A DNA stretch of 64,000 bases from Albidovulum sediminis (lineage in GTDB: Bacteria; Pseudomonadota; Alphaproteobacteria; Rhodobacterales; Rhodobacteraceae): the NCBI RefSeq assembly GCF_025380365.1, contig NZ_JAOCQF010000001.1:806001-870000 (forward strand), written 5' to 3'. The notes below the pieces were generated by a model. The model was given only the letters and a program-made list of their open reading frames with translations, searched no databases and had not been told where the DNA came from. Positions 13,249-59,856 of the stretch are shown here, piece by piece; within the stretch, counting starts at the first letter, position 1, and each line of letters opens with the position of its first letter. A program made the translations under genes and the position numbers.

Positions 13249-14166
13249 ATGCCGCTTTCCATGAATCGCGAGGTCTTCATCACCTGCGCCATTACCGGCT
13301 CCGGCGCGACGCAGGACCGCAGCCCGCATGTCCCGCGCAGCCCCGAGCAGATCGCGAATTCCGCGATCGACGCGGCGAAGGCCGGGGCGGCCATCGTCCA
13401 TTGTCACGTCCGCGACCCCGAGACCGGCAAGCCCTCGCGCCGGGTCGATCTGTACCGCGAGGTGACCGAGCGCATCCGCGAGGCGAACGTGGACGTGGTG
13501 CTGAACCTGACGGCGGGCATGGGCGGCGACATCGTCTTTGGCCCGACCGAGAACCCGATGCAGCTGAACCGGACCGCCACCGACATGGTCGGCGCCTCGG
13601 AACGGGTGGAGCATGTCGCCGAATGCCTGCCGGAGATCTGCACCCTCGACTGCGGCACGATGAACTTCGCCGAGGCCGATTACGTGATGACCAACACGCC
13701 CGGCATGCTGCAGGCAATGGGCCGGATGATGACCGCGCTTGGGGTCAAACCCGAGATCGAGGCCTTCGACACTGGCCACCTTTGGTACGCCAAGCAACTG
13801 GTCGAGGACGGCATCCTGACCGGCCCCGCGCTGGTGCAGCTCTGCATGGGCGTGCCCTGGGGGGCGCCGGACGACCTCAACACCTTCATGGCGATGGTCA
13901 ACAACGTGCCGAAGGACTGGACCTTCTCGGCCTTCGCGCTGGGGCGCAACCAGATGGCCTATGTCGCGGCCGCGGTGCTGGCCGGCGGCAACGTGCGGGT
14001 GGGGCTTGAGGACAACCTCTGGCTTGGCAAGGGGCAACTGGCGACCAACGCCCAGCTTGTCGAACGCGCGGTGACGATCATCGAGAACATGGGCGCGCGG
14101 GTCATCGGACCGGATGAGGTGCGCGCAAAGCTTGGCCTGACCAAGCGCGCGCCGCGGGCGAAGTGA
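13249..14166 (+). CDS. BKACE-family beta-keto acid cleavage enzyme (probable 3-dehydrocarnitine cleavage)
   Basis: 305-aa DUF849/BKACE TIM-barrel enzyme. The family uses Zn2+ to condense a beta-keto acid with acetyl-CoA, giving acetoacetate and a new acyl-CoA. Visible features are the metal-binding HCHVRDPETG near residues 49-58, LNLTAGMGGD, and the C-terminal NVRVGLEDNLWLGKGQLATN. The next gene is a carnitine dehydrogenase fused to a thioesterase, so the likely substrate is 3-dehydrocarnitine, with betainyl-CoA and acetoacetate as products. The ATG at 13249 follows GGAGG; a -10-like TATAGT lies upstream, divergent from ssrA. Family assignment is firm; substrate is inferred from context. Confidence 0.88.
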   Translation: MPLSMNREVFITCAITGSGATQDRSPHVPRSPEQIANSAIDAAKAGAAIVHCHVRDPETGKPSRRVDLYREVTERIREANVDVVLNLTAGMGGDIVFGPTENPMQLNRTATDMVGASERVEHVAECLPEICTLDCGTMNFAEADYVMTNTPGMLQAMGRMMTALGVKPEIEAFDTGHLWYAKQLVEDGILTGPALVQLCMGVPWGAPDDLNTFMAMVNNVPKDWTFSAFALGRNQMAYVAAAVLAGGNVRVGLEDNLWLGKGQLATNAQLVERAVTIIENMGARVIGPDEVRAKLGLTKRAPRAK

Positions 14167-14195
14167 CCGGGCGAAGCAGGGACCAACGGGAGAGC

Positions 14196-15662
14196 ATGAG
14201 AATGGCGCGCAAGGCGGCGATTATCGGGGGCGGGGTCATCGGCGGCGGCTGGGCCGCGCGGTTCCTTCTGAACGGCTGGGACGTGGCGGTGTTCGACCCC
14301 GACCCGCAGGCCGAACGCAAGATCGGCGAGGTCATGGCCAACGCCCGCGCGGCGCTTCCCGCGCTTTCGGACGTGCCGATGCCGGCGGAGGGGCGGATCA
14401 CCTTCTGCGGCACCCTCACCGAGGCGGTGGAAGGCGCGGACTACATCCAGGAATCCGTCTCCGAACGGCTGGACCTGAAGCACCGCGTCTTCGCGCAGAT
14501 TCAGCAGGCGAGCCATGGGGTGCCCATCGGCTCCTCCACCTCGGGCTTCAAGCCGTCGGAATTGCAGGAAAACGCCGCCGACCCTTCGGTGATCTTCGTC
14601 GCCCACCCGTTCAACCCGGTCTACCTTCTGCCGCTGGCCGAGGTGGTGCCGAGCGCGAGGTCGGACGCGAAGGTGATTGAAAAGGCGAAGGAAATCCTGC
14701 GTGAGATCGGGATGTTCCCGCTCCACGTCCGGAAGGAGATCGACGCCCATATCGCCGACCGCTTCCTTGAAGCCGTGTGGCGCGAGGCGCTGTGGCTGGT
14801 CAAGGACGGCGTCGCCACGACCGAGGAGATCGACGAGGCGATCCGCATGGGCTTCGGCCTGCGCTGGGGCCAGATGGGACTGTTCGAGACCTACCGGATC
14901 GCTGGCGGCGAGGCGGGGATGAAGCACTTCCTCGCGCAGTTCGGCCCCTGCCTGACCTGGCCCTGGACCAAGCTGATGGACGTGCCGGAGTTCAACGACG
15001 AACTGGTGGACCTGATCGCCGGGCAGTCGGACGCGCAGTCGGGCAAGTATTCGATCCGCGAACTGGAACGCATCCGCGACCAGAACCTGATCGGCTTCAT
15101 GCGCGCGCTGAAGGACCGCAACTGGGGCGCGGGCAAGGTGCTGCTGGAGCATGACGAACGCCGCCGCGCGACCTTCCACGACGCGGGCGCCGCGGCGACG
15201 GGCGCGCCCCTGGTCCTTGCCAACATGCAGGTGCTGCCGGGCTGGATCGACTACAACGGCCACATGACCGAAAGCCGCTACCTCTTCGCCGCGTCGGAGA
15301 CATCGGACGCCTTCCTGCGGCTGATCGGCGCCGGGATGGACTATGTCGCGGCGGGGCACAGCTATTACACCGCCGAGACGCATATCATGCACCTGGGCGA
15401 GGCAAAGCTGGGCGACCGGCTGACCGGCACGCTGCAGGTGCTGGGCGTGGACGAAAAGCGCATCCATGCCTTCATCCGCATCCAGCGGGGCGATACGGTG
15501 GTGGCCAGCCTCGAACAGATGTTCCTGCACGTGGACATGAAGGTCGGCAAGGCCTGTCCGGCCGCGCCCGAGGTTCTGGCCCGGCTGAATCCGATCGCGC
15601 AGGCGCACGCGGGGCTGCCGCGGCCGGATGCGGCGGGCCGTCACGTCGGTCAGCGGAAGTGA
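14196..15662 (+). CDS. lcdH: L-carnitine 3-dehydrogenase fused to betainyl-CoA thioesterase
   Basis: 488-aa fusion. Residues about 1-320 are a 3-hydroxyacyl-CoA-dehydrogenase-like NAD enzyme: Rossmann IIGGGVIGGGWAARF at the N terminus, then VFDPDP, ESVSERLDLKHRVF, SSTSGFKPSEL and HPFNPVYLLPLAEVV. This matches carnitine 3-dehydrogenase. Residues about 345-470 are a 4HBT-type hotdog domain with WIDYNGHMTESRY, as in betainyl-CoA thioesterase. Together with the BKACE gene the pathway is carnitine, 3-dehydrocarnitine, betainyl-CoA, glycine betaine. The start is ATG 14196, 3 nt after GGGAG; ATG 14202 is also possible. It overlaps the next gene by 4 bp. Confidence 0.9.
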   Translation: MRMARKAAIIGGGVIGGGWAARFLLNGWDVAVFDPDPQAERKIGEVMANARAALPALSDVPMPAEGRITFCGTLTEAVEGADYIQESVSERLDLKHRVFAQIQQASHGVPIGSSTSGFKPSELQENAADPSVIFVAHPFNPVYLLPLAEVVPSARSDAKVIEKAKEILREIGMFPLHVRKEIDAHIADRFLEAVWREALWLVKDGVATTEEIDEAIRMGFGLRWGQMGLFETYRIAGGEAGMKHFLAQFGPCLTWPWTKLMDVPEFNDELVDLIAGQSDAQSGKYSIRELERIRDQNLIGFMRALKDRNWGAGKVLLEHDERRRATFHDAGAAATGAPLVLANMQVLPGWIDYNGHMTESRYLFAASETSDAFLRLIGAGMDYVAAGHSYYTAETHIMHLGEAKLGDRLTGTLQVLGVDEKRIHAFIRIQRGDTVVASLEQMFLHVDMKVGKACPAAPEVLARLNPIAQAHAGLPRPDAAGRHVGQRK

Positions 15663-16420
15663 GCGCGCGGGTCGTGATCACGGCCGGCGCCTCGGGCATC
15701 GGCCTTGCCATGGCGCGCGCCTTCGCGGCGCGGGGCGACCGGGTCTGGGTGACGGACGTGGACGCCGGCGCGGTGGCGGCGGTGCCCGAAGGCATCCGGG
15801 CCTCGCACGTCGACGCCGCCGACGAGGCGCAGATGGCGGCCTTCTTCGCCGAGGTCGGCGCGGCCTGGGGCGGGCTTGACGTGCTGTGCGCCAATGCCGG
15901 GATCAAGGGGCCGACCGCCGCGATCGAGGACATGGACCTGGCCGAATGGCACGGCTGCCTCGCCGTCAACCTCGACGGGGCGATGCTGGCGGCCAAGTAC
16001 GCGACCCCCTTCCTGAAGGCGCAGGGGGCGGGGGTGATGCTTTTCACCTCCTCGACCTCGGGCCTTTACGGCACCCCCTTCCGCGCGCCCTACGTGGCGG
16101 CGAAATGGGCGGTGATCGGGTTGATGAAGACGGTGGCGATGGAGCTTGGCCCCTTCGGCATCCGCGCCAACGCGATCTGCCCCGGATCGGTCAACGGCCC
16201 CCGCATCGACCGCGTGATCGCGGCCGAGGCCGAGGCGAAGGGCATGACGGCGGAGGCGGTGCGCGCTGGCTATGCCGGGGGCACGGCCCTTGGCCGGCTG
16301 TCGGACGCCGAGGACATCGCCGCGATGGCCGTCTTCCTCGCCTCGGACGGGGCGCGGATGGTGTCGGGGCAGGCGATCACCGTCGACGGTTTCACCATCA
16401 ACCCGGACCCCAAGGTATGA
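15659..16420 (+). CDS. Short-chain dehydrogenase/reductase
   Basis: 253-aa classical SDR. The cofactor motif is TAGASGIGLAMARAF, followed by NAG in CANAGIKGP, Ser in FTSSTSG, and the catalytic YVAAK. The C-terminal SGQAITVDGFTINPDP is typical. An Asp after beta-2 (VTDVDAG) suggests NAD(H) preference. It starts at a GTG overlapping the lcdH stop codon, so it is the third gene of the carnitine operon. The substrate is not evident; carnitine oxidation is already covered by lcdH. It converges on betC. Confidence 0.88.
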   Translation: MSARVVITAGASGIGLAMARAFAARGDRVWVTDVDAGAVAAVPEGIRASHVDAADEAQMAAFFAEVGAAWGGLDVLCANAGIKGPTAAIEDMDLAEWHGCLAVNLDGAMLAAKYATPFLKAQGAGVMLFTSSTSGLYGTPFRAPYVAAKWAVIGLMKTVAMELGPFGIRANAICPGSVNGPRIDRVIAAEAEAKGMTAEAVRAGYAGGTALGRLSDAEDIAAMAVFLASDGARMVSGQAITVDGFTINPDPKV

Positions 16421-16464
16421 GGGCTGCGCCCGCGCAGGCCGGAATGTGCCGCGGGCGCGGGCGG

Positions 16465-17973
16465 TCACTCTCCGCGCGGGAAGCGTTTGGAGCCTTCGAG
16501 GTCGTTCAGGTCCATGTGGTTGCGCATGTAGCGTTCCGAGGCGGCGCGCAGCGGCTGGTAATCCCAGGGGAAGTAGCTGCCGTTCCTGAGCGCCTCGTAG
16601 ACCACCCAGCGCCGCGCCTGGCTTTGCCGCACCTCGGCGTCGAAGCGGGCAAGGTCCCAGCGCGCCTCGGACTTCACCTTCAGCGCGCTGAGCGTGCCCG
16701 CATGCGCCGGGTCGCCGGCAAGGTTGCGCAGTTCGTGCGGATCGGCCTCGAGGTCGAAAAGCTGGTCGGGGTCAAGCGCACAGCGGTTGTATTTCCAGCG
16801 CCCGTAGCGCAGCGAGACGAGCGGCGCATAGGACGCCTCGGCGGCGTATTCCATGCAGACCGGCGCGGTCCGTTCCGCCCCGCGCGCCAGCGGCAGCAGG
16901 CTTTCGCCGTCGGTCCAGGGCATCACCTCGTCCATGCTGACGCCGGCGAGGTCGCAGAGCGTGGGCGTCACGTCGATGGTGGAGACGGGCGCGTCGATGC
17001 GCTGCGGTGCCAGCCCCGGCGCGGCGATCATCAGGGGCACGCGGGCGGAGCCTTCGTAGAAGTTCATCTTGTACCAGAGCCCGCGCTCGCCCAGCATGTC
17101 GCCGTGGTCGGAGACGAAGACCACGACCGCCTCCTGCCGGGTCGCCTCCAGCACCGCCATCAGCCCGGCGATCTTGTCGTCGAGGTAGGAGATATTGGCG
17201 AAGTAGGCCCGGCGGGAGCGGCGGATGTCATCCTCGGTCACGGTGAAGTTGCGCCAGTCGTTGGCGTCGAAGATGCGCTGCGCATGGGCGTCGTGCGCCT
17301 CATAGGGCATCGCCGGAACCTCGGGCAGGAGGTGTTCGCAGCCCTCGTAAAGATCCCAGTACTTGCGCCGCGCGACGTAGGGATCGTGCGGGTGGGTGAA
17401 GCTGACCGTCAGGCACCAGGGGCGGGGGTCGGCGCCGCGGGCGAGGTCGTAGATCTTCTGCTCGGCGTTGAAGGCCACCTCGTCGTCGTATTCCATCTGG
17501 TTGGTGATCTCTGCCACGCCCGCGCCGGTGACCGAGCCCATGTTGTGATACCACCAGTCGATGCGCTCCCCCGGCTTGCGGTAGTCGGGGGTCCAGCCGA
17601 AGTCGGCGGGGTAGATGTCGGTCGTCAGCCGCTCCTCGAAGCCGTGCAGCTGGTCGGGGCCGACGAAATGCATCTTGCCCGACAGGCAGGTCTGGTATCC
17701 CGCCCGGCGCAGGTGATGGGCGAAGGTCGGGATGTCGGAGGCGAATTCGGCGGCGTTGTCGTAGACGCGCGTGCGCGAGGGCAGTTGCCCGGTCATGAAC
17801 GACGCCCGCCCCGGCGCGCAGAGCGGCGAGGCGGTGTAGGTGTTGGCAAAGCGGACCGAGCGCGCGGCCAGCGCCTTCAGCGCAGGGGCATGCAACCAGT
17901 CGGCGGGACCATCGGGAAAGAGCGTCCCGTTCAACTGGTCGACCATCACGATCAGGATGTTGGGCAAGGTCAT
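16465..17973 (-). CDS. betC: Choline-sulfatase BetC
   Basis: 502-aa type I sulfatase hydrolysing choline-O-sulfate to choline and sulfate. The formylglycine motif CAPGR starts at Cys52 (C-x-P-x-R, so activation by an FGE-type system is needed). Metal ligands lie in IVMVDQLNG and FVSDHGDMLGERG. Long segments such as DQLHGFEERLTTDIYPADF and the ERYMRNHMDLNDLEGSKR tail are characteristic of BetC rather than generic sulfatases. The start at 17973 follows GAGGA; a longer form from 18003 is possible. It is divergent from a LysR gene over 94 bp. The product choline can be oxidised to betaine, the same end product as the carnitine operon on its other side. No betA/betB is in the window. Confidence 0.95.
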   Translation of the reverse strand: MTLPNILIVMVDQLNGTLFPDGPADWLHAPALKALAARSVRFANTYTASPLCAPGRASFMTGQLPSRTRVYDNAAEFASDIPTFAHHLRRAGYQTCLSGKMHFVGPDQLHGFEERLTTDIYPADFGWTPDYRKPGERIDWWYHNMGSVTGAGVAEITNQMEYDDEVAFNAEQKIYDLARGADPRPWCLTVSFTHPHDPYVARRKYWDLYEGCEHLLPEVPAMPYEAHDAHAQRIFDANDWRNFTVTEDDIRRSRRAYFANISYLDDKIAGLMAVLEATRQEAVVVFVSDHGDMLGERGLWYKMNFYEGSARVPLMIAAPGLAPQRIDAPVSTIDVTPTLCDLAGVSMDEVMPWTDGESLLPLARGAERTAPVCMEYAAEASYAPLVSLRYGRWKYNRCALDPDQLFDLEADPHELRNLAGDPAHAGTLSALKVKSEARWDLARFDAEVRQSQARRWVVYEALRNGSYFPWDYQPLRAASERYMRNHMDLNDLEGSKRFPRGE

Positions 17974-18067
17974 CGCGTCCTCGTATTTTACTGGCAATGT
18001 CATTCAAACAGAATATGCTGGAGTGCGAAAAGGTACAGAATTTCTATTGGGGACATAAACCAGATTT
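17974..18067. promoter_or_regulatory. Divergent betC/lysR control region
   Basis: A 94-bp AT-rich island. It contains GTATTTTA (17983-17990), then a -35-like CTGGCA (17991-17996), 17 bp and TATGCT directed at the LysR gene. The same GTATTTT word lies before both binding-protein genes at 21031 and 22773. This is a likely LysR-controlled bidirectional promoter. Confidence 0.5.
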
Positions 18068-19009
18068 ATGCAGGGGCTGGATCTTGGCGCGCTGGATCTG
18101 ATTGCGGCGGTCGTGCGGACCGGGTCGCTGACGCGTGCGGCGGCACGGCTGGGGATGAGCCAGCCTGCGGTCAGCTATCGGCTGCGGCGGATCGAGGCGG
18201 GGCTTGGCTCCGCCCTCTTCGACCGATCCGCGGATGGCTGCACGCTGACGCCGTCGGGGGCGATCCTGTGGCGGGCGATCGAACCGGGGTTGAGCGCGAT
18301 CGACGCCGCCGTGGCCGAGATCGGCGCGGCAAAGGGCGCGCGGGTGCTGCGCATCCTGACCGATTTCGCCTTCGCCGGATTCTGGCTGATGCCACGCCTT
18401 GGCCGCTTCCGGCTGGATCGGCCGGGGCTTCAGGTGCAGATCGTCGCGTCGCAGGCGCCGGGCCTGCCGCGGCCGGACGAGGTGGTGGTGCGCTTTGGCC
18501 GCGCGGCGACGATGCCCGAGGGCGCGCGCCTTCTGATGCCGGAACGGGTGGTGCCGGTGGCCGCCCCGATGAGCGCGGGGGCGCGGCGGGGGCCGGGGGC
18601 GGCGCCCCTGATCCATCTCGACGCGGAGGCCGGTGCGGAATGGCTGACCTGGGCGGGCTGGTTCGCCGCGCGCGGTGCGGCGATGCCGGGGCCGGAGGGG
18701 TCGGGGACGGAGAGGTCGGGGGCGGGGGACATCCGGCTCAACACCTACGACCTCGTCGTGCAGGCCGCACTCGACGGGCAGGGCGTGGCGCTGGGGTGGC
18801 GGCCGCTTGTGGATGCGCATCTGGCGGCCGGGCGACTGGTCGCTGCGGGCGGGGAAACCGAAACGCCCGCGACCGGCTACTGGCTGATTGCCGGGCCGGG
18901 TCCGGCGGCGGCGGAGTTCGCGGGCTGGCTGGCCGTGGCGGTGGCGGAGACGGATGGGCAGGCGCGCGAGGCCGCCCAACGGGAGAGAACGGATGAAGAC
19001 GGTCACTGA
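18068..19009 (+). CDS. LysR-family regulator (choline-sulfate locus)
   Basis: 313-aa LysR-type regulator. The N-terminal winged HTH (residues about 7-60) reads GSLTRAAARLGMSQPAVSYR then RRIEAGLGSALFDR, and an effector-binding periplasmic-protein-like domain fills the remainder. It is divergent from betC, the usual position of the choline-sulfate regulator. It also leads the downstream rightward set: its 3' end overlaps the CocE-type hydrolase gene by 17 bp. I infer control of both betC and the downstream importer. The C-terminal 20 residues are polar and non-conserved in appearance. Confidence 0.85.
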   Translation: MQGLDLGALDLIAAVVRTGSLTRAAARLGMSQPAVSYRLRRIEAGLGSALFDRSADGCTLTPSGAILWRAIEPGLSAIDAAVAEIGAAKGARVLRILTDFAFAGFWLMPRLGRFRLDRPGLQVQIVASQAPGLPRPDEVVVRFGRAATMPEGARLLMPERVVPVAAPMSAGARRGPGAAPLIHLDAEAGAEWLTWAGWFAARGAAMPGPEGSGTERSGAGDIRLNTYDLVVQAALDGQGVALGWRPLVDAHLAAGRLVAAGGETETPATGYWLIAGPGPAAAEFAGWLAVAVAETDGQAREAAQRERTDEDGH

Positions 19010-21008
19010 CTTTTCGCACCAGGTGGTCGAGGACCCCGACATGGGTATTGTCCTTGCCGACGGCTGCCGCCTGTCGGCGCGGGTGTGGATGCCGGCGGAC
19101 GCACACGAGAACCCCGTGCCCGCGGTGATGGAATACATCCCCTACCGCAAGCGCGACATGATGCTGCCGCGCGACGAGCTGATGCACCCCTGGTTCGCCG
19201 GTCACGGCTATGCCGCCGTCCGTGTCGACATGCGCGGCTGCGGCGACAGCGAAGGGTTGATGGAGGACGAATACACCGAACAGGAACTGTCGGACGCCGC
19301 CGAGGTGATCGCCTGGCTGGCCGCGCAGCCCTGGTGCAGCGGCACGGTCGGGATGATGGGCAAAAGCTGGGGCGGCTTCAACTGCCTGCAGACGGCCATG
19401 CGCCGCCCACCCGCGCTGAAGGCGGTGATCAGCGTCTGTTCGACGGTGGACCGGTTCGCCGACGACATCCACTACAAGGGCGGCTGCCTTCTGGGCGAGA
19501 ACTTCGGCTGGGCGGCGCAGATGATGTCCTACGCCTCGCGCCCGCCCGACCCGATGCTGGCCGGGAACTCCTGGCGCGAGCGCTGGTTCGAGCGGCTCGC
19601 GGCGCAACCGTTCCTTGCAAGGCGGTGGTTCGAGCATCAGGCCCGCGACGACTACTGGAAGCATGGCTCGCTCTGCGAGGACTACGGGTCGGTGACGGCG
19701 GCGGTCCTGTCCTTTGGCGGCTGGGCCGACAATTACATGAATACCGTCTCGCACCTCGTTGAAAACGTGAAGGCCCCGGTGAAGGGGATCGTCGGGCCCT
19801 GGGTGCACCAGTATCCCCATACCGCGCTGCCCGGCCCGGCGATCGGCTTCCTGCAGGAGGCGCTCAGGTGGTGGGACCGCTGGCTGAAGGATGTCCCGAA
19901 CGGGGCGGAGGGGGACCCGGCCTATCGCGCCTACATGCTCCATTCGGCGCCGCCCGATGCGTCCTCCGCCTTCCGGCCCGGTCACTGGCTGGCCGAGCGC
20001 GACTGGCCCACCGCGCGGGTCACGCGCCGGGCGCTGGCGCTGTCGGCGGGCGGATTGCTGGGCGAGGCCCTTGGTGGGGGCGGTGGGGCGCTGGCGGTGC
20101 CGGTCTGCACGCCCCAGCACCTTGGCCTGCACGCCGGGGAGTTCTTTCCAATGGGCGGCAATGGCGAGATGCCGGGCGACCAGGCGGGCGAGGACGCGAT
20201 GTCGGTCTGCTTCGACACCGCGGCCCTTGACGCGCCGCTCGACCTTCTGGGCGCGCCGGTGCTGCGGCTGCGCCTGCGGTCCGACCGGGCGCGCGCCTTC
20301 ATCGTCGCGCGGCTTTGCGACGTGGCGCCGGACGGAAGTTCGGTGCGCATCTGCCACGGGATGCTGAACCTCTGCCATCGCGACAGCATGGAGCGGCCCG
20401 CTCAGGTGCCGGTGGGAGAGGAGATCGAGGTTGCGGTCACGCTCGACCAGACGGGTTACCGGCTTGCGGCTGGGCACCGGCTGCGGCTGGCGCTGTCGAC
20501 GACCTACTGGCCCTTCGTCTGGCCGAGCGCGGAAGCCGCGACGCTGACGCTGGCGGGCGGCACGCTTGACCTGCCGGTGCATGAGGGCAGCACGGGCGAC
20601 GAGTGGACCTTCCCCGAGCCCGAAGCGGCGCGGCCGTGGCGGCACCGGGTGCTGCGCCCCGAATCCTACGTTCGCCGGGTCGAGCATGATCTGGTCAGCG
20701 GCCGCCGCACGCTGGTGATGGAAGCGGATACCGGCGACTGCGAGAACCTCGACCACGGCTGGATCTGGGGCGACACGGTGAAGGAACGCTGGGGCATCGA
20801 CCCCGACGATCCGCTCTCGGCCGCGGTCGACATCGAATGGGAGCAGCGGCACGGGCGGGGCGACTGGTCGGCCAGCACCCGGATCGAGGCGCGGATGACG
20901 GCGACGCGCGACAGCTTCCGGCTTGTCGCCCAACTGATCGCGGTGGAGGGGGGTGCGGAAGTCTTCCGCCGCGCATACGACGAGGAGGTTCCGCGACATC
21001 ATGTGTGA
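18993..21008 (+). CDS. CocE/NonD-family (S15) alpha/beta hydrolase
   Basis: 671-aa hydrolase of the CocE/X-Pro-dipeptidyl-peptidase superfamily. It has an N-terminal alpha/beta-hydrolase core with FAGHGYAAVRVDMRGCGDSEG and the nucleophile elbow MGKSWGGFN (Ser near residue 124), then a C-terminal jelly-roll domain (from about 420, containing LRLRSDRARAFIV and RLALSTTYWPFVWPS). Such enzymes cleave esters or amides, as in cocaine esterase and glutaryl-7-ACA acylase. No signal peptide is seen, so it is cytoplasmic. The start ATG at 18993 follows GGGAGAGAACGG inside the end of the LysR gene. Context suggests it de-esterifies an imported substrate; an acyl-carnitine or choline ester is my guess only. 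Confidence 0.85.
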   Translation: MKTVTDFSHQVVEDPDMGIVLADGCRLSARVWMPADAHENPVPAVMEYIPYRKRDMMLPRDELMHPWFAGHGYAAVRVDMRGCGDSEGLMEDEYTEQELSDAAEVIAWLAAQPWCSGTVGMMGKSWGGFNCLQTAMRRPPALKAVISVCSTVDRFADDIHYKGGCLLGENFGWAAQMMSYASRPPDPMLAGNSWRERWFERLAAQPFLARRWFEHQARDDYWKHGSLCEDYGSVTAAVLSFGGWADNYMNTVSHLVENVKAPVKGIVGPWVHQYPHTALPGPAIGFLQEALRWWDRWLKDVPNGAEGDPAYRAYMLHSAPPDASSAFRPGHWLAERDWPTARVTRRALALSAGGLLGEALGGGGGALAVPVCTPQHLGLHAGEFFPMGGNGEMPGDQAGEDAMSVCFDTAALDAPLDLLGAPVLRLRLRSDRARAFIVARLCDVAPDGSSVRICHGMLNLCHRDSMERPAQVPVGEEIEVAVTLDQTGYRLAAGHRLRLALSTTYWPFVWPSAEAATLTLAGGTLDLPVHEGSTGDEWTFPEPEAARPWRHRVLRPESYVRRVEHDLVSGRRTLVMEADTGDCENLDHGWIWGDTVKERWGIDPDDPLSAAVDIEWEQRHGRGDWSASTRIEARMTATRDSFRLVAQLIAVEGGAEVFRRAYDEEVPRHHV

Positions 21009-21108
21009 TCCGCGAAGTTGGCGGCGGGCGGTATTTTCTGTTGACCATGGGGAACCATCCGCCATTATTGACTCAGCAATCAACAAAACTCTCAGGGAGA
21101 CGAAGACG

Positions 21109-22695
21109 ATGAAAGACGACCTTGCGATGCTGCTTGACCGCCTTGACGCGATGGGGCTGACCCGGCGCGGATTCATGGGGCGCGCGGCGGCGTTCGGCGC
21201 GGCGACCGCGCTTGGCACCACGCTGATGGGCGGTGCGGCGCGCGCGCAGGAAGCCAAGCGCGGCGGCGTGCTCAAGATGGGCCTTGGCGGGGGCGAGACG
21301 ACCGACTCGCTCGATCCCGGCCTGTCCGACAGCCCGGTTCCGTTCTCGGTCAACCGCCAGTGGGGCGATACGATCGTGAACGTGACGCCCGATGGCCAGA
21401 TCGAGCCGGCGCTGGCCGAAAGCTTCGAATCGAACCACGAGGGCACGGTCTGGACCTTCAAGATCCGTGAAGGCGTCAAGTTCCACGACGGTTCGGTAAT
21501 GACCGCCGAGGACGTCGCGGCGACCTTCCGCCGCCATTCCGACGAGAATTCCAAGTCCGGCGCGCTTGGGATCATGCAGGGCATCTCCGAAATCGCGGTC
21601 GACGGGCAGAACGTGGTCCTGACCATGGCGACCGGCAACGCCGACCTGCCCTACCTGCTGTCCGACTACCACCTGGTCGTCCAACCCAAGGGCGGGGTGG
21701 ACAATCCGGCGGCGGGGATCGGGACCGGCCCCTACAAGATCGTCTCGGCCGAACCGGGCGTGCGCTTCGTCTTCGAGCGCAACGCGGACGACTGGAACCA
21801 GAACCGCGGTTATTACGACGGGGTGGAGATCATCGTGATCAACGATGCCACCGCGCGGACGGCGGCGCTCCAGTCGGGGCAGGTCCACATGATCAACCGG
21901 ATCGACCCGAAGGTGGCCAAGCTCCTGTCGAAGGCGCCGGGGGTGCAGGTGACGCATGTCGCGGGCCGCGGGCATTACGTCTTCATCATGCACACCAACA
22001 CCGCGCCCTTCGACAACAAGGACCTGCGCAACGCGCTGAAATGGGCGATCAACCGTCAGGAACTGGTCGACAAGATCCTCGACGGCTTCGGCAGCGTCGG
22101 CAACGACATCCCGATCAACGCGGCCTATCCGCTGTTCGACGGCGGCCTGGAACAGCGCGAATACAACGCCGAGAAGGCGGCCGAGCTTTACAAGGCGTCC
22201 GGCCACGACGGCAGCCCGATCGAGCTTCTGGTGGCGGACGGTGCCTTCCCCGGCGCGGTCGACGCGGCGCAGCTGTTCCAGCAGTCCGCGCAGGCGGCGG
22301 GCATCCCGCTCGAGGTCAAGCGCGTGCCGGATGACGGCTACTGGTCGGACGTCTGGAACGTGAAGCCGTTCTGCGCCTCCTACTGGGGCGGGCGGCCGGT
22401 GCAGGACCAGATGTATTCGACGGCCTATCTGTCGACCGCGGACTGGAACGACACCCGCTTCAACAACCCGGAATTCGACGCGTTGCTGCTTGAGGCGCGC
22501 GCCGAGACCGATCTGGCCAAGCGCAAGGAAATCTATGCGAAGATGGCCGCGATCCTCTGGGACGAGGGCGGCGTGATCTGCCCGATGTTCAACGACTTCA
22601 TCGACGCGCACGGCGAGGCGATCGCCGGGTGGATCGAGGATCCCAACTACGAGATGATGGGCGGCTGGGCCTCGTCGAAGACCTGGTTCGCCTGA
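21109..22695 (+). CDS. Peptide-type ABC substrate-binding protein 1 (Tat-exported)
   Basis: 528-aa family 5 (DppA/OppA-like) binding protein. Its N terminus carries a twin-arginine signal, LTRRGFMGRAAAFGAAT with RR at 19-20 and cleavage after ARA, so it is exported folded to the periplasm. Typical motifs are TVWTFKIREGVKFHDGSVMTAED and VFERNADDWNQNRGYYDG. The start ATG 21109 lies 8 nt after AGGGAGA. It is followed by a strong hairpin, then by a paralogue of exactly the same length. Family 5 proteins bind peptides but also opines, nickel and small cationic compounds; the ligand is unknown. Confidence 0.9.
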   Translation: MKDDLAMLLDRLDAMGLTRRGFMGRAAAFGAATALGTTLMGGAARAQEAKRGGVLKMGLGGGETTDSLDPGLSDSPVPFSVNRQWGDTIVNVTPDGQIEPALAESFESNHEGTVWTFKIREGVKFHDGSVMTAEDVAATFRRHSDENSKSGALGIMQGISEIAVDGQNVVLTMATGNADLPYLLSDYHLVVQPKGGVDNPAAGIGTGPYKIVSAEPGVRFVFERNADDWNQNRGYYDGVEIIVINDATARTAALQSGQVHMINRIDPKVAKLLSKAPGVQVTHVAGRGHYVFIMHTNTAPFDNKDLRNALKWAINRQELVDKILDGFGSVGNDIPINAAYPLFDGGLEQREYNAEKAAELYKASGHDGSPIELLVADGAFPGAVDAAQLFQQSAQAAGIPLEVKRVPDDGYWSDVWNVKPFCASYWGGRPVQDQMYSTAYLSTADWNDTRFNNPEFDALLLEARAETDLAKRKEIYAKMAAILWDEGGVICPMFNDFIDAHGEAIAGWIEDPNYEMMGGWASSKTWFA

Positions 22696-22707
22696 ACCGG
22701 CCAAAAG

Positions 22708-22740
22708 ACCCTGTCGCGCGTCTCGGGCGCGCGGCAGGGT
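22708..22740 (+). terminator. 13-bp hairpin between the two binding-protein genes
   Basis: ACCCTGTCGCGCG (22708-22720) pairs with 22728-22740 (one G-U) around a 7-nt loop. No T tract follows, so it more likely protects the upstream mRNA 3' end or attenuates than fully terminates. Confidence 0.5.
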
Positions 22741-22846
22741 GATCCGGCGACGTAAAGTTTCGTGGGTGCCGGGTATTTTATTTGATTATTGCGAGGCTCT
22801 TGTTACCCAATACCAACCACAAAAAGATCACGCAGGGGAGAATCTG

Positions 22847-24433
22847 ATGGACGGGGAACTCAAGTACCTTCTGGCGCGAACCGCGCAGGGCAAGCACAGT
22901 CGGCGCGCGTTCCTGGGCCGTGCGGGCGCACTCGGCATGTCGGCGGCGATGGCCAACACGCTTCTGGCTGGCGCGGTGCGGGCCGAGGAGCCGAAGAAGG
23001 GCGGCATGATCCGCGTCGGCATGCAGGGCGGCGAGAGCACCAACACGCTCGACCCGGCGCTCGCGGCATCGGAAGTGCCGTTCATGGTCAACATGACCTG
23101 GGGCGAGATGCTGACCGACGTCGATCCGGCCGGCAACATCGAGCTGCGCCTGGCCGAGGAGATCTCCTCCAGCCCCGATGCGAAGACATGGACCTTCAAG
23201 ATCCGTCAGGGGGTGGAGTTCCACAACGGCAAGACCGTCACCGCCGAGGACGTGCTGGCGACGATGCAGCGGCATTCGGACGAGAAGTCGCAGTCAGGCG
23301 CGCTCGGCATCGTGCAGGGCATCGAATCGATGTCGGCCGAGGGCGACAAGTTCACCGTCACGCTGGTGTCGCCGAACGCGGACCTGCCCTACCTGATGGG
23401 CGACTATCACCTGATCATCCAGCCGGACGGCGGCCGGGACGACCCGACCGCGGGCATCGGCGCGGGGCCCTACAAGGTCGTCGTGAACGAACCCGGCGTG
23501 CGTCACGGCTTCGAGCGGCACGCGAACTACTGGGATGACCGGATCGCGCATGCGGACCAGACCGAGATCCTTGTCATCAACGACACCACCGCACGGGTGG
23601 CCGCCCTTCAGGCGGGGCAGGTCCACATGATCAACCGGGTCGATCCCAAGGTCTTCCAGCTTCTGAAGAACGCGCCGGGCATCCAGGTCAAGAACGTCGC
23701 CGGCCGCGGGCATTACGTCTTCATCATGCATTGCACCGCCGCGCCGTTCGACAACAATGACCTGCGGATGGCGCTGAAGCTGGCCATCAACCGGCAGGAG
23801 ATGGTGGAAAAGATCCTGGGCGGGCTTGGTTCGGTCGGCAACGACTTCCCGATCAACTCCGCCTATCCGCTGTTCGACGACACGATCCCGCAGCGCGAAT
23901 ACGATCCCGAACAGGCGGCCTTCTTCTACAAGAAGTCGGGTCACGACGGCAGCCCGATCATCCTGCGCACCGCGTCCGGCGCCTTCCCCGGAGCGGTCGA
24001 GGCGGCGCAGCTGTTCCAGCAGTCGGCGGCCGCGGCGGGCATCCCGCTCGAGATCAAGCGCGAGCCGGATGACGGCTACTGGTCGAACGTCTGGAACGTG
24101 CAGCCCTTCAGCGCCTCCTACTGGGGCGGGCGGCCGGTGCAGGACCAGATGTATTCCACCGCCTATCTTTCCTCGGCGGAATGGAACGACACCAAGTTCT
24201 ACAACGACAAGTTTGACAGCATCCTGATCGCGGCGCGGGCCGAACTCGACACCGCCAAGCGCAAGGCGATGTATTCGGAGATGGCACATATCCTGCGCGA
24301 CGAGGGCGGTCTGATCTGCCCGATGTTCAACGACTTCGTCGAAGGCGTCAGCGACGCAATCGCGGGCTGGGAGGCCGATCCGAACGGCGAACTGATGAAC
24401 GGCCGGGCACACGTCAAGTGCTGGCTGGCCTGA
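22847..24433 (+). CDS. Peptide-type ABC substrate-binding protein 2 (Tat-exported paralogue)
   Basis: 528-aa paralogue of the preceding gene, same length and alignable end to end; both share the stretch YWGGRPVQDQMYSTAYLS. The twin-arginine signal is HSRRAFLGRAGALGMSAA with RR at 19-20. It has its own AT-rich upstream region (GTATTTTA at 22773) and ribosome site (GCAGGGGAG). The permease genes start 10 bp later, so this copy is the one most tightly coupled to the membrane parts. A tandem duplication with divergence in ligand specificity is likely. Confidence 0.9.
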   Translation: MDGELKYLLARTAQGKHSRRAFLGRAGALGMSAAMANTLLAGAVRAEEPKKGGMIRVGMQGGESTNTLDPALAASEVPFMVNMTWGEMLTDVDPAGNIELRLAEEISSSPDAKTWTFKIRQGVEFHNGKTVTAEDVLATMQRHSDEKSQSGALGIVQGIESMSAEGDKFTVTLVSPNADLPYLMGDYHLIIQPDGGRDDPTAGIGAGPYKVVVNEPGVRHGFERHANYWDDRIAHADQTEILVINDTTARVAALQAGQVHMINRVDPKVFQLLKNAPGIQVKNVAGRGHYVFIMHCTAAPFDNNDLRMALKLAINRQEMVEKILGGLGSVGNDFPINSAYPLFDDTIPQREYDPEQAAFFYKKSGHDGSPIILRTASGAFPGAVEAAQLFQQSAAAAGIPLEIKREPDDGYWSNVWNVQPFSASYWGGRPVQDQMYSTAYLSSAEWNDTKFYNDKFDSILIAARAELDTAKRKAMYSEMAHILRDEGGLICPMFNDFVEGVSDAIAGWEADPNGELMNGRAHVKCWLA

Positions 24434-24443
24434 GGCGGTTGGC

Positions 24444-25400
24444 ATGCATCCGATCCTGAAACTGGTGGCCCAGCGACTTTCGCTGGGCCTGCTCCTGCTC
24501 TTGGCCGCATCGGCGCTGATTTTCATCGGGGTGGAACTTCTGCCCGGCGACGTCGCGCAGTCGATCCTCGGCCAGTCGGCCACGGAAACCGCGCTACGCA
24601 ACCTGCGCGAGGAACTGGGGCTGAACGAACCGGCGCTGACGCGCTATTTCAACTGGCTGTTCGGCGCACTCCATGGCGACCTCGGCACTGCGCTGACCAA
24701 CGGGCAGGACATCTCCAAGGCCATCGGAGAGCGGCTGGGCAACACGCTCTTCCTCGCCTTCTGGGCCGCGCTCTTCTCGGTGCCGCTGGCCATCGTCCTC
24801 GGCCTGATCGCGGTGCGCTACCGCAACCGCTGGCCGGACAAGCTGATCTCGGGGATCACGCTTTCCACCATCTCACTACCGGAGTTCGTGGCGGGCTACC
24901 TGCTCATGTATCTCTTCACCGTCGAATTCCGCATCTTTTCGCCCATCTCCACGATCTATGCGGGCATGAGCCTTGGCGAGAAGCTGAGCGCCATCGCGCT
25001 GCCGGTGATGGTGCTGGTGCTGGTGGTGCTGGCGCACATGATGCGGATGACGCGCGCGGCGATCCTGAACGTGATGCAGTCGGCCTATATCGAGACGGCG
25101 GAACTGAAGGGCCTGCGCCCCTTCGTCATCATCGCCCGCCATGCCTTCCCGAATGCCATCGCGCCGGTCGTCAACGTGGTGATGCTGAACCTCGCCTACC
25201 TCGTCGTCGGCGTCGTCGTGGTGGAGGTCGTCTTCGTCTATCCCGGCATGGGGCAGTACCTGGTCGATCATGTCACCAAGCGTGACCTGCCGGTGGTGCA
25301 GGCCTGCGGGCTGATCTTCGCCGCGGTCTACATCGGGCTGAACATCCTGGCCGACGTCATCTCCATCCTCGCCAACCCGAGACTGAGGCACCCGAAATGA
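24444..25400 (+). CDS. ABC importer permease, DppB type
   Basis: 318-aa inner-membrane permease with an N-terminal membrane helix (LLLLLAASALIFIGVELLPGD) typical of DppB/OppB, and five more helices. The cytoplasmic EAA-like loop reads YIETAELKGLRPFVIIARHAF and contacts the ATPase. It partners the next permease (4-bp overlap) and the two binding proteins upstream. Confidence 0.93.
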   Translation: MHPILKLVAQRLSLGLLLLLAASALIFIGVELLPGDVAQSILGQSATETALRNLREELGLNEPALTRYFNWLFGALHGDLGTALTNGQDISKAIGERLGNTLFLAFWAALFSVPLAIVLGLIAVRYRNRWPDKLISGITLSTISLPEFVAGYLLMYLFTVEFRIFSPISTIYAGMSLGEKLSAIALPVMVLVLVVLAHMMRMTRAAILNVMQSAYIETAELKGLRPFVIIARHAFPNAIAPVVNVVMLNLAYLVVGVVVVEVVFVYPGMGQYLVDHVTKRDLPVVQACGLIFAAVYIGLNILADVISILANPRLRHPK

Positions 25401-26230
25401 GCCGCATCCCCCTTTCGGCCCTGATCGGTCTTGTCCTGACCGCGGCCTTCTTCCTGACCGCCATCTTCGCCAACCTGCTGGCGCCCTACGGGCTGAACGA
25501 GACCATCGGCGATGTCTGGGAAAACCCGTTCTGGTCGGCGGAGCCATCGCAGTACCTGCTCGGCACCGACAACATCGGGCGCGACCTGCTCAGCCGGATG
25601 ATCTACGGCTGCCAGATCACCATCTTCCTTGCCACCGCGGCGACCATCGTCAGCTTCACCACCGGCTCGATCCTCGGCTTTACCGCCGCGGTCGTCGGCG
25701 GCTGGGTCGATCAGGTGATGTCGCGGCTGGTCGACCTCTTCATGTCGCTGCCCTCTCTCATCCTCGCGCTCGTCATCCTGTCGGTGATGCAGGTGACGCT
25801 GCCGGTCCTGATCATCGTCATCGGGCTTCTCGATTCCACCCGCGTCTATCGCCTGGCCCGCGCGGTCGCGGTCGATATCGTGGTGATGGACTATGTCGAG
25901 GCGGCGCGGCTGAGGGGCGAGGGGACGAAGTGGATCGTGCTGAGGGAGATCCTGCCCAACGCGCTGTCGCCCCTGGTCGCCGAACTGGGCCTTCGCTTCA
26001 TCTTCGCGGTCCTTTTCATCTCCACCCTGTCCTTCCTGGGCCTCGGCGTGCAGCCGCCCCTGGCCGACTGGGGCGGCATGGTGAAGGAGAACAAGGAAGG
26101 GCTGGTCTACGGCGTCTCGGCCGCACTCGTGCCCGCCATCGCCATCGCGGCGCTGGCCATCTCGGTCAACCTGGTTGCGGACTGGATCCTGAACCGCACC
26201 ACCTCGCTGAAAGGGGGCCGCGGTGCCTGA
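25397..26230 (+). CDS. ABC importer permease, DppC type
   Basis: 277-aa second permease subunit. An N-terminal helix (LIGLVLTAAFFLTAIFANLL) is followed by the DppC-specific LGTDNIGRDLLSRMIYG. The EAA loop is VEAARLRGEGTKWIVLREIL, and the GLGVQPPLADWGGMV segment lies near the C terminus. Start and stop overlap both neighbours (4 and 8 bp), which indicates one operon. Confidence 0.93.
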   Translation: MSRIPLSALIGLVLTAAFFLTAIFANLLAPYGLNETIGDVWENPFWSAEPSQYLLGTDNIGRDLLSRMIYGCQITIFLATAATIVSFTTGSILGFTAAVVGGWVDQVMSRLVDLFMSLPSLILALVILSVMQVTLPVLIIVIGLLDSTRVYRLARAVAVDIVVMDYVEAARLRGEGTKWIVLREILPNALSPLVAELGLRFIFAVLFISTLSFLGLGVQPPLADWGGMVKENKEGLVYGVSAALVPAIAIAALAISVNLVADWILNRTTSLKGGRGA

Positions 26231-27860
26231 CATTCTGCTGGACGTCCGCAACCTCAAGATCGGCGCGACGGTCTATCCGCCCGGCGAGCCGCCGCAGAAG
26301 ATCGAGATCGTGCACGGCGTGTCCTTCACGCTGGAGAAGGGCAAGGTGCTGGGCCTGATCGGCGAAAGCGGGGCCGGCAAGTCCACGATCGGGCTGTCGT
26401 CCATGGCCTACGGCCGCGGCGGCGTGCGCATCACCGGGGGCGAGGTCTTCGTCAACGGCCGCGACATCCTGAAGGAGGGGGCGGCGGGCCTGCGCGCCCT
26501 GCGCGGGCAGGAAGTGACCTATGTCGCGCAATCGGCGGCGGCGGCCTTCAACCCGGCCAAGCGGATCATGGAGCAGGTGATCGAAACCACGCTGATGCAT
26601 GGTCTGGCGACGCGGGCCGAGGCGGAAAAGCGCGCGGTGACGCTGTTCAGGAAACTTGGCCTGCCGAACCCGGACACGTTCGGCAACCGCTATCCGCATC
26701 AGGTGTCGGGCGGGCAGTTGCAGCGGGCGATGACGGCGATGGCGCTGTGCCCCGAACCCGATCTGGTGGTCTTCGACGAACCGACGACCGCGCTGGACGT
26801 GACCACGCAGATCGACGTCCTGGCCGCGATCAAGGAGGCGATCCACGCCACCGGCGTTGCCGCGCTCTACATCACGCACGACCTTGCCGTGGTGGCGCAG
26901 GTGTCGGACGAGATCATGGTGCTGCGCCACGGCAAGACGGTGGAATACGGCCCCGTCGCCCAGATCATCGAGGCCCCGCAGGAGGACTACACCCGCGCGC
27001 TGGTCTCGGTCCACGCCATCGCGCACGAGGAAAAGAAGCCGACGGCAGAGCCGATCCTGAAGATCGAGAACGTGACCGCGCGCTACAAGGGCACCCACTT
27101 CGACGTGCTGAAGAACGTGAGCGTGGAGCTTCACCCTGGCCAGACTCTGGCGGTGGTGGGCGAAAGCGGGTCGGGCAAGTCGACTCTGGCCCGCGCGATC
27201 ACCGGGCTTCTGCCGCCCGCGAAGGGGCGCATCACCTTCGCCGGGCGCGAACTGTCACCGGCGCTGAAGGACCGCCGGCCCGACGATCTGCGCGAATTGC
27301 AGATGATCTACCAGATGGCCGACGTGGCGATGAACCCGCGCCACACGGTGGGCACGATCATCGGCCGCCCGCTCGAATTCTACTTCGGCCTGAAGGGTGA
27401 GGCGAAGCGCAAGCGCGTGCAGGAACTTCTCGACGAGATCGAGATGGGCAAGGGCTTCATCGACCGCTATCCGGCCGAACTGTCGGGCGGGCAGAAGCAG
27501 CGCGTCTGCATCGCCCGCGCGCTGGCGGCGAAGCCCCGGCTGATCATCTGCGACGAGGTGACATCGGCGCTCGACCCGCTGGTGGCGGCGGGGATCCTGC
27601 GGCTGCTCCTGAACCTCCAACAGATCGAGGGGGTGGCCTATCTCTTCATCACCCACGACCTTGCCACGGTGAAGTCGATCGCGGATTCGATCGCGGTCAT
27701 GTATCAGGGCGCGGTCCAGCGCTACGGCGGCAAGACCGACGTGCTGACCCCGCCATTCGACGACTACACCGACCTTCTGCTGTCGTCGGTGCCGGAAATG
27801 AAACTCGGCTGGCTGGAGCATGTGTTGGCCCACCGCAAGATGGAAAGTGCCGGAAATTGA
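26223..27860 (+). CDS. Fused double ABC ATPase (DppD-DppF type)
   Basis: 545-aa protein with two complete nucleotide-binding domains. Domain 1 has Walker A GESGAGKST at 47-55, signature VSGGQLQRAM and Walker B LVVFDEPTTALD. Domain 2 has Walker A GESGSGKST at about 314-322, signature LSGGQKQRVCIA and LIICDEVTSALD. The fusion replaces separate DppD and DppF subunits and energises the two permeases encoded upstream. It probably starts at the GTG at 26223. The classical oligopeptide C-terminal Cys cluster of DppD is not evident in domain 1. Confidence 0.93.
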   Translation: MPDILLDVRNLKIGATVYPPGEPPQKIEIVHGVSFTLEKGKVLGLIGESGAGKSTIGLSSMAYGRGGVRITGGEVFVNGRDILKEGAAGLRALRGQEVTYVAQSAAAAFNPAKRIMEQVIETTLMHGLATRAEAEKRAVTLFRKLGLPNPDTFGNRYPHQVSGGQLQRAMTAMALCPEPDLVVFDEPTTALDVTTQIDVLAAIKEAIHATGVAALYITHDLAVVAQVSDEIMVLRHGKTVEYGPVAQIIEAPQEDYTRALVSVHAIAHEEKKPTAEPILKIENVTARYKGTHFDVLKNVSVELHPGQTLAVVGESGSGKSTLARAITGLLPPAKGRITFAGRELSPALKDRRPDDLRELQMIYQMADVAMNPRHTVGTIIGRPLEFYFGLKGEAKRKRVQELLDEIEMGKGFIDRYPAELSGGQKQRVCIARALAAKPRLIICDEVTSALDPLVAAGILRLLLNLQQIEGVAYLFITHDLATVKSIADSIAVMYQGAVQRYGGKTDVLTPPFDDYTDLLLSSVPEMKLGWLEHVLAHRKMESAGN

Positions 27861-28693
27861 GCCAGAACAAACTGCTCCTCATCATCCTCGATGGGGTTCC
27901 CTATGCCAACTGGCGCCGGCTTTTCGGCAACCTCGAAGGCTGGGTCGAGGCCGGGGAGGCGCGGGTCTGGCGGATGCGGTCGGTCCTGCCGTCGACCTCC
28001 GCCTCCTGCTATGCCTCGATCCACACCGGGCTTTTGCCGCAGGTGCACCGGATCTGGGACAACGCCGACATCCGCCGGCTGGAGTTTCCCGACATCTTCT
28101 CCGAGGCCACGAAGGCGGGGCTGAAGACCGGCGCGGTGACGCACAGCTACTGGTCGGAGTTCTTCAACCGCGCCCCTTTCGACGTGGTCCGCGACATCGA
28201 GTATGACGAACCCGGGGGGCCGATCACCCACGGCCGCTTCCACACGATGAAGGGCTATGGCCACGACAACCAGATGACGCCCGCCGACTACGACCTGTTC
28301 GGCACGCTGACCCGGCTGGCCGAGGTCAAGGGGATCGACTACGGCATCCTGCACACCTGCACGCTCGACAGCATGGGGCACCGCTTCTACCACGATTGCG
28401 AGGCGATGGATCACGCCTGTTTCGCGATGGACGCGACGCTGGCGCCCTTCGTCGACCGCTGGCGCCGCGCGGGGTATGAGGTGATCGTGACCGCCGACCA
28501 CGGGCAGGACGCGCGCGGCCACCACGGCGGAACGGGGCCGGACCAGCGCGATTTCGCCTTCTACTACTTCGGCCCGGCCGAAGGCCCGGCGCCCGAGGTG
28601 GTTCTGGACCAGCTGGCGCTGGCGCCGACGATCCTCGGCCGCCTTGGCGTTCCGGTGCCCGCGACGATGACGGCCGCGCCCTTCCTGCGCTAG
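27857..28693 (+). CDS. Alkaline-phosphatase-superfamily phosphodiesterase-like enzyme
   Basis: 278-aa protein of the type I phosphodiesterase/nucleotide pyrophosphatase branch of the alkaline phosphatase superfamily. Metal and active-site segments seen are LLIILDGVPYAN, PSTSASCYASIHTG (nucleophile region), TLDSMGHRFYHD and VIVTADHGQDARGHHGG. There is no signal peptide, so it is cytoplasmic. The only reasonable start is TTG 27857, which overlaps the ATPase stop codon (TTGA), so translation should be coupled to the importer. It probably acts on the imported compound (phosphodiester, phosphonate or sulfate ester); the substrate is unknown. It converges on the EamA gene with a 4-bp overlap. Confidence 0.82.
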   Translation: MSQNKLLLIILDGVPYANWRRLFGNLEGWVEAGEARVWRMRSVLPSTSASCYASIHTGLLPQVHRIWDNADIRRLEFPDIFSEATKAGLKTGAVTHSYWSEFFNRAPFDVVRDIEYDEPGGPITHGRFHTMKGYGHDNQMTPADYDLFGTLTRLAEVKGIDYGILHTCTLDSMGHRFYHDCEAMDHACFAMDATLAPFVDRWRRAGYEVIVTADHGQDARGHHGGTGPDQRDFAFYYFGPAEGPAPEVVLDQLALAPTILGRLGVPVPATMTAAPFLR

Positions 28694-57251: not shown

Positions 57252-57262
57252 GGCGGTTCCCC

Positions 57263-58690: not shown

Positions 58691-58702
58691 CTTCGTCCCT
58701 TC

Positions 58703-59846: not shown

Positions 59847-59856
59847 GGTCAGGCGA

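Follow-up and report, generated by a model that had tools for sequence, protein, structure and literature searches.

Carnitine and choline both lead to glycine betaine, the former through carnitine 3-dehydrogenase (CDH)/thioesterase and BKACE, the latter through BetA and BetB. Choline-betaine-carnitine importers of the Cbc/ChoXWV type have an OpuAC-type binding protein, and Cbc is of the ProU/OpuA class. Here we analyse a 64,000-nt window of the Albidovulum sediminis genome (GCF_025380365.1, contig NZ_JAOCQF010000001.1, 806,001-870,000 of the forward strand; 4.29 Mb in 20 contigs), in which a carnitine operon and the choline sulfatase gene betC lie beside the genes for hydrolases and for an ATP-binding cassette (ABC) importer that, unlike Cbc, is of the dipeptide/nickel class. 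We judge, with rather more confidence than doubt, that these genes form a module which takes up and unwraps trimethylammonium nutrients on their way to glycine betaine.

The importer shares its permease, ATPase and binding-protein families with E. coli DppABCDF. The agrocinopine system Acc is a Dpp-class importer for a non-peptide, and its AccA is among the nearest solved solute-binding proteins (SBPs; E 2e-25, 21% identity). Acc has a phosphodiesterase partner, although of another phosphodiesterase family, and a ligand unlike trimethylammonium compounds. The catabolic genes of the described carnitine/gamma-butyrobetaine operons (BKACE, CDH/thioesterase) are also those found in the window. In Pseudomonas, caiX-cdhCAB-hocS joins carnitine genes to a dedicated SBP and a short-chain acylcarnitine hydrolase, and several SBPs share Cbc (PMC5806209). 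The window has the same combination of carnitine genes, SBP and esterase, but its esterases are of the CocE and HSL types. An Arctic SAR11 island (PMC12421898) has a related gene set, with genes for CDH, BKACE, gamma-butyrobetaine dioxygenase, choline dehydrogenase, class II aldolase, glycerophosphodiester phosphodiesterase and an ABC transporter, although the importer there is termed a glycine betaine ABC system and the part of the article drawn on names no CocE. Apart from this island, the literature covered contained neither a dipeptide-class carnitine/choline importer nor the same gene set; this is not proof of absence, and the Sinorhizobium carnitine description and the S. meliloti transporter survey lay outside its scope. 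The kind of machine is known, and we claim with care that the substrate assignment and the combination of parts are apparently undescribed.

Linkage of the importer to carnitine, choline and betaine genes

The importer lies in a tight rightward operon, cocE-SBP1-SBP2-permease-permease-fused ATPase-PDE, where PDE is a phosphoesterase of the alkaline phosphatase superfamily. A survey of 120 genomes from the window's family (window excluded, 4.0 Mb assumed per genome) yielded 46 close relatives of the SBPs. Within 12 kb of these, betC was present for 11, CDH for 5 and either gene for 15 (in 14 genomes), compared to ~0.5 expected from gene density. The earlier note on this DNA would have abandoned its proposal had relatives of the importer not co-occurred with betC or carnitine genes, and the 15 linked SBPs speak for keeping it. 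More distant SBPs were near betC or CDH in 2 of 45 cases, compared to 0.47 expected. PDE (4 of 36) and CocE (8 of 34) were also found near betC or CDH, where ~0.4 was expected for each; in these family counts the 13 weakest betC rows were left out and the 35 best CocE rows used. CocE lay within 6 kb of 30 of the 46 close SBPs, and PDE within 12 kb of 25.

Across the class (289 genomes; the three SBP rows from the window genome itself were left out), CDH was near two of the seven close SBPs, near 4 of 56 intermediate ones and near none of the 36 distant ones, compared to 0.04, 0.17 and 0.03 expected. The close and intermediate sets together make up the 63 SBPs of the subfamily, 6 of which, from 5 genomes in 4 families, were near CDH against 0.2 expected. 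Some rows of the CDH list are partial or below cut-off, among them the two from G283. For tmpA, which was sought in 385 genomes, the corresponding numbers of close, intermediate and distant SBPs were 0, 3 and 0. Six control regions of distant SBPs contained no marker gene save one generic aldehyde dehydrogenase. At the level of whole genomes, CDH was present in 41 of 44 with a close SBP compared to 46 of 76 without (p 9e-5), and in 31 of 32 with PDE compared to 56 of 88 without (p 1.4e-4; these Fisher tests include the window genome).

The order of genes is also conserved. A search with PDE gave 95 confirmed relatives, the best 80 of which are our named loci; by title almost all of them belong to Rhodobacteraceae or Rhodobacterales, except for one Exiguobacterium metagenome-assembled genome and a few given only as Pseudomonadota or Proteobacteria. 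In the 64 named loci that span at least 9.9 kb upstream of PDE, the ABC set was complete in 54, CocE was present in 51, betC in 44 and betA in 16. The earlier note had put forward conservation of the order betC-lysR-cocE-ABC-phosphodiesterase as a check. The order betC-cocE-ABC-PDE is conserved: 35 of the 64 loci carry betC and CocE together with all the ABC genes. Both betC and CocE were present in 38 of the 80 named loci and were divergent in all 38: the gap was <400 bp without lysR in 25, held lysR in 6, and was longer with no lysR hit in 7. The arrangement is more than chance, because these pairs are divergent without exception and most of the 64 loci retain every ABC gene. A class II aldolase gene (42 of 80) and one for an HSL-type alpha/beta hydrolase, here called AEST (45 of 80), recur downstream.

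In the window, betC and lysR separate the importer from the carnitine genes. In Rhizobium and in genome G085, by contrast, the same carnitine genes sit ahead of the importer. G085 carries, on one strand, BKACE-CDH-acyl-CoA dehydrogenase-CoA ligase-enoyl-CoA hydratase-SBP (69%)-PermB-PermC-ATPase, PermB and PermC being the permeases. The plasmid pR132505 of R. leguminosarum bv. trifolii WSM1325 has BKACE-CDH-acyl-CoA dehydrogenase-CoA ligase-carnitinyl-CoA dehydratase-SBP-PermB-PermC-ATPase-CocE, also on one strand, with identities to the window proteins of 71% (ATPase), 58/56% (SBP, to SBP1/SBP2), 42% (CocE) and 41% (AEST). On pRetMIM1b of R. etli Mim1 the order is similar, but CocE comes after a regulator on the minus strand and another SBP. 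In both strains an alpha/beta hydrolase gene is convergent to the carnitine-importer-CocE run, and BKACE is annotated as '3-keto-5-aminohexanoate cleavage protein'. Thalassospira marina has SBP-permeases-ATPase-CocE together with this alpha/beta hydrolase, and three genomes of family f37 have AEST-SBP-PermB-PermC-ATPase-CocE beside BKACE-CDH.

Other arrangements were found elsewhere. In G013 and G117, BKACE-CDH-SBP-PermBC-ATPase has a gamma-butyrobetaine-dioxygenase (GBBH)-like gene close downstream and a divergent regulator; in G013 the GBBH-like match (TIGR02409) is below cut-off, as is that of the regulator to its best model, the choline regulator GbdR. In G003 a carnitine operon is divergent from a regulator and the importer, the SBP gene carries a stop and a CocE fragment lies behind the ATPase. 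The carnitine link is also found in other families, in G385 and in G312 and G405, where BetA, importer, CDH, BKACE, a GBBH-like gene and tmpA occur together. G060 has BetI-BetB-BetA, each above cut-off, followed on the same strand by SBP-PermB-PermC to the contig end; this genome had no match to betC or CDH in the family genome searches. Pseudooceanicola algae has a class II aldolase, a TauD-family dioxygenase, LysR, CocE-SBP-permeases-ATPase and a GMC oxidoreductase. Genes in fetched loci were called by a simple codon-score script, which makes small genes and starts approximate.

TmpA and TmpB turn 2-trimethylaminoethylphosphonate (TMAEP) into glycine betaine. The tmpAB pathway is not part of the window cluster, but its genes adjoin relatives of PDE and, more rarely than betC, relatives of the importer. 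Regions of 7.9-15 kb were fetched for 20 of 30 tmpA hits, and three held the importer: G198 (BetC-TmpA-TmpB-SBP-PermBC-ATPase), G421 (TmpA-TmpB-GBBH-like-SBP-PermBC-ATPase, on one strand) and G452 (ATPase-AEST-PDE-CocE-TmpB-TmpA). The window genome holds tmpAB elsewhere (G000:C14:503893-504960, L187), beside a LysR gene; the 15 kb fetched around it contains no importer.

The link to betC or CDH is strong but not universal, because 31 of the 46 close SBPs had neither gene within 12 kb, and this is one of several points that weigh against a role in trimethylammonium uptake. In 12 of the first 20 regions fetched, the operon is part of a conserved block, together with a D-Tyr-tRNA-deacylase-like gene, often a DUF4147/MOFRL glycerate-kinase-like gene, and others without a visible betaine link (neighbours outside the profile library, namely D-Tyr-tRNA deacylase, nitroreductase and acyl-CoA synthetase, were named by eye). 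Most of 40 further class-level SBP regions had no marker gene, and on Mesorhizobium pMLa the importer (77% ATPase) lies beside unrelated-looking genes. Around the carnitine-linked importers of G013, G117 and G085, the fetched stretch contains no CocE and no PDE. In 17 of the 20 tmpA regions the importer was absent from the fetched stretch (L192 has only a distant Dpp importer), and PDE matches in the 20 comprised one strong and two weak ones (L204 and L205, E about 6e-6). Genome co-occurrence with betC in the 120 family genomes was not significant (SBPs p 0.29, PDE p 0.11), and we therefore dropped an accessory role to betC as the principal interpretation. Finally, both the linkage and the co-occurrence statistics ignore shared ancestry.

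Proposed function

What might this set of genes do? In the module we propose, the two SBPs, exported by the twin-arginine (Tat) route, would capture carnitine-type or choline-type compounds and pass them to one dipeptide/nickel-class importer. Inside the cell CocE, and probably AEST, would split carboxyl esters (O-acylcarnitines, acylcholines), BetC would split the sulfate ester of choline, and PDE would split a phosphate or phosphonate ester of choline or of a choline analogue. Freed carnitine would be converted by CDH/thioesterase and BKACE, and freed choline by BetA and BetB, to glycine betaine. From gene content, order, conservation, linkage and the loss of peptide anchors described below, we infer the substrates and the chemistry, including the identity of the ligand and the uptake of whole conjugates. 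The importer probably handles carnitine-, gamma-butyrobetaine- or choline-type compounds. That CocE and AEST act on acyl esters of such compounds has an even chance, and that PDE acts on choline-type phospho(no) esters is a tentative suggestion which we would sooner doubt than accept.

The earlier note had proposed that the importer takes up a larger quaternary-ammonium conjugate, which CocE and PDE trim inside the cell. The quaternary-ammonium part is favoured by relatives wired to carnitine/gamma-butyrobetaine, betIBA, betC and tmpAB genes in several families. The larger conjugate fares less well: in the stretches fetched for G013, G117 and G085, the carnitine-linked importers are accompanied by neither enzyme, so that import of free carnitine-type compounds is no less probable for them. 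These three importers also favour the most serious alternative, in which only free carnitine, gamma-butyrobetaine or choline is imported, and the hydrolases are unrelated or accessory, with no uptake of conjugates. Cbc offers a precedent for this, since it uses free choline, betaine and carnitine with several SBPs (PMC5806209). We nevertheless consider import of free compounds alone unlikely, as CocE is directly behind the ATPase in the carnitine operon of R. leguminosarum and in the three f37 loci, the carnitine-linked G003 has a CocE fragment in the same position, and CocE and PDE are near more than half of the close SBPs.

More broadly, an unnamed branch of dipeptide/nickel-class importers could be dedicated to trimethylammonium nutrients across Alphaproteobacteria. 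With CocE, an HSL esterase and a choline-type phosphoesterase, it would salvage intact esters (acylcarnitines, acylcholines, choline phospho-/phosphonoesters, perhaps choline-O-sulfate) into glycine betaine. We put this forward as a possibility that falls somewhat short of an even chance. If true, a substrate class could be assigned to a widespread importer, which the database records consulted label as a peptide or generic ABC transporter. The importer would also be a candidate for the unknown choline-O-sulfate transporter of Ruegeria (PMC12442346) and for an importer of intact lipid headgroups, whose uptake by marine bacteria is considered possible (PMC10132767). The esterases would be candidates for the unidentified medium-/long-chain acylcarnitine hydrolases, which is a Pseudomonas question (PMC5806209) and applies here by analogy.

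Binding proteins and hydrolases

Window genes were identified by gene calling and profile searches (Pfam, TIGR and NF models). SBP1 (21109-22695, plus strand; E 5.2e-78) and SBP2 (22847-24433, plus strand; E 2e-73) are Tat-type proteins of the Pfam family SBP_bac_5, with the twin-arginine motifs RRGFMG and RRAFLG, respectively. They are followed on the same strand by an OppB/DppB-type permease (24444-25400), an OppC/DppC-type permease (25397-26230) and an ATPase with two ABC_tran stretches fused in one chain (26223-27860). The SBP_bac_5 domains, two BPD_transp_1 permeases and Dpp/Opp/Nik-type ATPase place the importer in the dipeptide/nickel (Dpp/Opp/Nik) class. By Pfam, neither SBP has an OpuAC-type domain, only SBP_bac_5. 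In a structure comparison of the SBP2 model (predicted local distance difference test (pLDDT) 89.3), YliB, Nik and Dpp proteins were on top among 50 rows, a ranking that does not tell which ligand is bound. The 50 include no protein of the OpuAC type, which excludes nothing.

This class assignment is also the basis of the next alternative, an ordinary importer of di/oligopeptides or other nutrients that has inherited its gene order, with CocE as an X-Pro peptidase-like enzyme. The fold and family of the SBPs are those of Dpp/Opp/Nik binding proteins, CocE belongs to the S15 family along with X-Pro peptidases, and about two thirds of close relatives are unlinked. E. coli DppA, however, anchors the peptide ends with R383 and D436, and neither residue is kept in any of the 40 SBPs of our MAFFT alignment (the two window SBPs and 38 of 47 non-redundant candidates). 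In a profile alignment an Arg faces D436, and R383 falls in an insertion. Because these anchors are lost in 40 of 40, peptide binding is weakened, and the linkage recurs across different arrangements and families. We regard an ordinary peptide importer as quite improbable.

CocE (18993-21008, plus strand) matches TIGR00976 with 247 bits (cut-off 66) and has the serine nucleophile motif GKSWGG, as expected for a CocE/NonD hydrolase. Its best solved relative is the Rhodococcus cocaine esterase CocE (E 2e-35), of the same TIGR00976 subfamily. The window genome has a second CocE, 45% identical (G000:C14:432515-434512; L136:7516-13124, minus strand). It follows genes for an MTTB-family (trimethylamine methyltransferase) protein, which is under the pyrrolysine-type equivalog cut-off, and an FMN oxidoreductase, and precedes another dipeptide-class importer. 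This setting is another hint that CocE of this type goes with methylated amines.

PDE (27857-28693, plus strand; 278 residues) matches the Phosphodiest family PF01663 with E 3.1e-14 and 53.8 bits (cut-off 23). It is probably active as an enzyme, since D12, S48, D171, H175, D214, H215, H222 and H223 are invariant in an alignment of 30 sequences (PDE and 29 relatives), with roles assigned by eye from the family motif. The metal-site residues and the fold also fit the alkaline phosphatase superfamily. The model (pLDDT 81.8, residues 104-140 unreliable) matched phosphoethanolamine transferases, nucleotide pyrophosphatases/phosphodiesterases (NPPs) and phosphonoacetate hydrolase at 12-23% identity in the best 50 of 794 matches, and the choline-specific ENPP6 and ENPP7 were among many superfamily matches at 13-14%. 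As the fold search returned the whole superfamily, it fixes no substrate. Matches by phmmer were weak (phosphoglycerate mutases, E 0.0036). Distant homologues, ~30% identical in the matches displayed, are present in 179 records of Enterococcus plasmids, where they are annotated as alkaline phosphatase family protein or nucleotide pyrophosphatase. Shinella has an orphan SBP and PDE pair adjoining a homocysteine S-methyltransferase family gene (L257:9350-12865). Neither such orphan pairs (Shinella, Sinorhizobium RAC02) nor a lone PDE (Phyllobacterium) pointed to a substrate, and the neighbours of an orphan SBP (61%), all that was found on pSymB of Sinorhizobium meliloti 1021, were uninformative.

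PDE is linked to betC independently of the importer, because the two remain neighbours without ABC genes in 7 of the 64 long-flank loci (L076, L083, L087, L092-L094 and L096), with a gap of 126-182 bp in 6 of them; L076, L083 and L087 also hold carnitine genes. Distant PDE homologues lie directly behind tmpAB in L173 (44%) and L184 (split in two frames), where the Tmp family matches are above cut-off, and behind the TauD-HD genes of a Labrenzia plasmid, on which TauD-HD-phosphatase are consecutive. These loci would suit an importer whose main task is to take up headgroups of the phosphonate or phosphodiester type (glycerophosphocholine, TMAEP esters), with the carnitine link secondary. AccA being among the nearest solved SBPs fits this too, and the uptake of intact headgroups has been posed as an open question (PMC10132767). 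With several carnitine-linked importers lacking PDE, and a strong PDE match in only one of 20 tmpA regions, we hold a headgroup importer to be highly unlikely. The same is true of the importer as the missing choline-O-sulfate uptake system of betC, with CocE and PDE as side enzymes: betC is upstream in 44 of 64 long-flank loci and divergent from cocE in all 38 loci with both, and unknown choline-O-sulfate transporters are said to exist (PMC12442346), but carnitine linkage predominates except in part of the window's family, a betC match is absent from some linked genomes such as G060, and co-occurrence with betC is not significant.

Remaining genes of the window and its relatives

Gene calls and profile searches bore out the genes, order, families and overlaps that the earlier note had given. 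The carnitine operon begins with BKACE (13249-14166, plus strand; Pfam BKACE E 8.8e-102). The adjacent plus-strand gene (14163-15662, alternative start 14202) encodes CDH fused to a thioesterase-like domain; it matches NF005716 with 786 bits (cut-off 592) and has 3HCDH_N, 3HCDH and 4HBT_2 domains. Together these identify a carnitine 3-dehydrogenase/thioesterase plus BKACE pair. The third gene encodes an SDR oxidoreductase (15659-16420, plus strand) and is also retained behind CDH in L076, L083, L087 and L186. BetC (16465-18003, minus strand) was identified by TIGR03417 (900 bits, cut-off 433), Choline_sulf_C and the sulfatase motif CAPGR. As the earlier note had read them, lysR (18068-19009, plus strand) is divergent from betC, with 64 bp between, and cocE starts within lysR. 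The nearest model for LysR is the choline-sulfate regulator TIGR03418, yet its score of 265 bits is below the cut-off of 325. The cocE start is most likely 18993, 17 bp inside lysR and after a Shine-Dalgarno-like GGGAGAG (by eye); a longer frame begins at 18888. The last four genes of the operon (permeases, ATPase, PDE) overlap by 4, 8 and 4 bp.

Two minus-strand genes follow PDE, an EamA-type transporter (28690-29658) and AEST (29655-30596; Abhydrolase_3 E 1.6e-56, motif GDSAG). AEST lies beyond the stretch covered by the earlier note and is the recurrent partner of importer and carnitine genes counted above. In many relatives the class II aldolase occupies the EamA position. This aldolase family protein (NF005689, hypothetical) is convergent to PDE, for example in L056:10850-11596, and also lies beside GBBH-like genes in L135 and in Pseudooceanicola algae (L260), where it is 84% identical to that of L135. 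For a tree built by a quick method, 13 loci were taken from the 80 named ones; not included were L121 and L141, which are second copies of L186 and L177, and also L175, L210 and L213. In L097-L111 the importer operon is often behind a DUF4147/MOFRL glycerate-kinase-like gene, of which one was tested by profile. A second dipeptide-class importer of the window (55167-61503, minus strand) has an SBP_bac_5 protein, two permeases and a fused ATPase with oligo_HPY; its SBP is a distant relative only (E 2.4e-66), and an AraC regulator (61754-62764) adjoins it.

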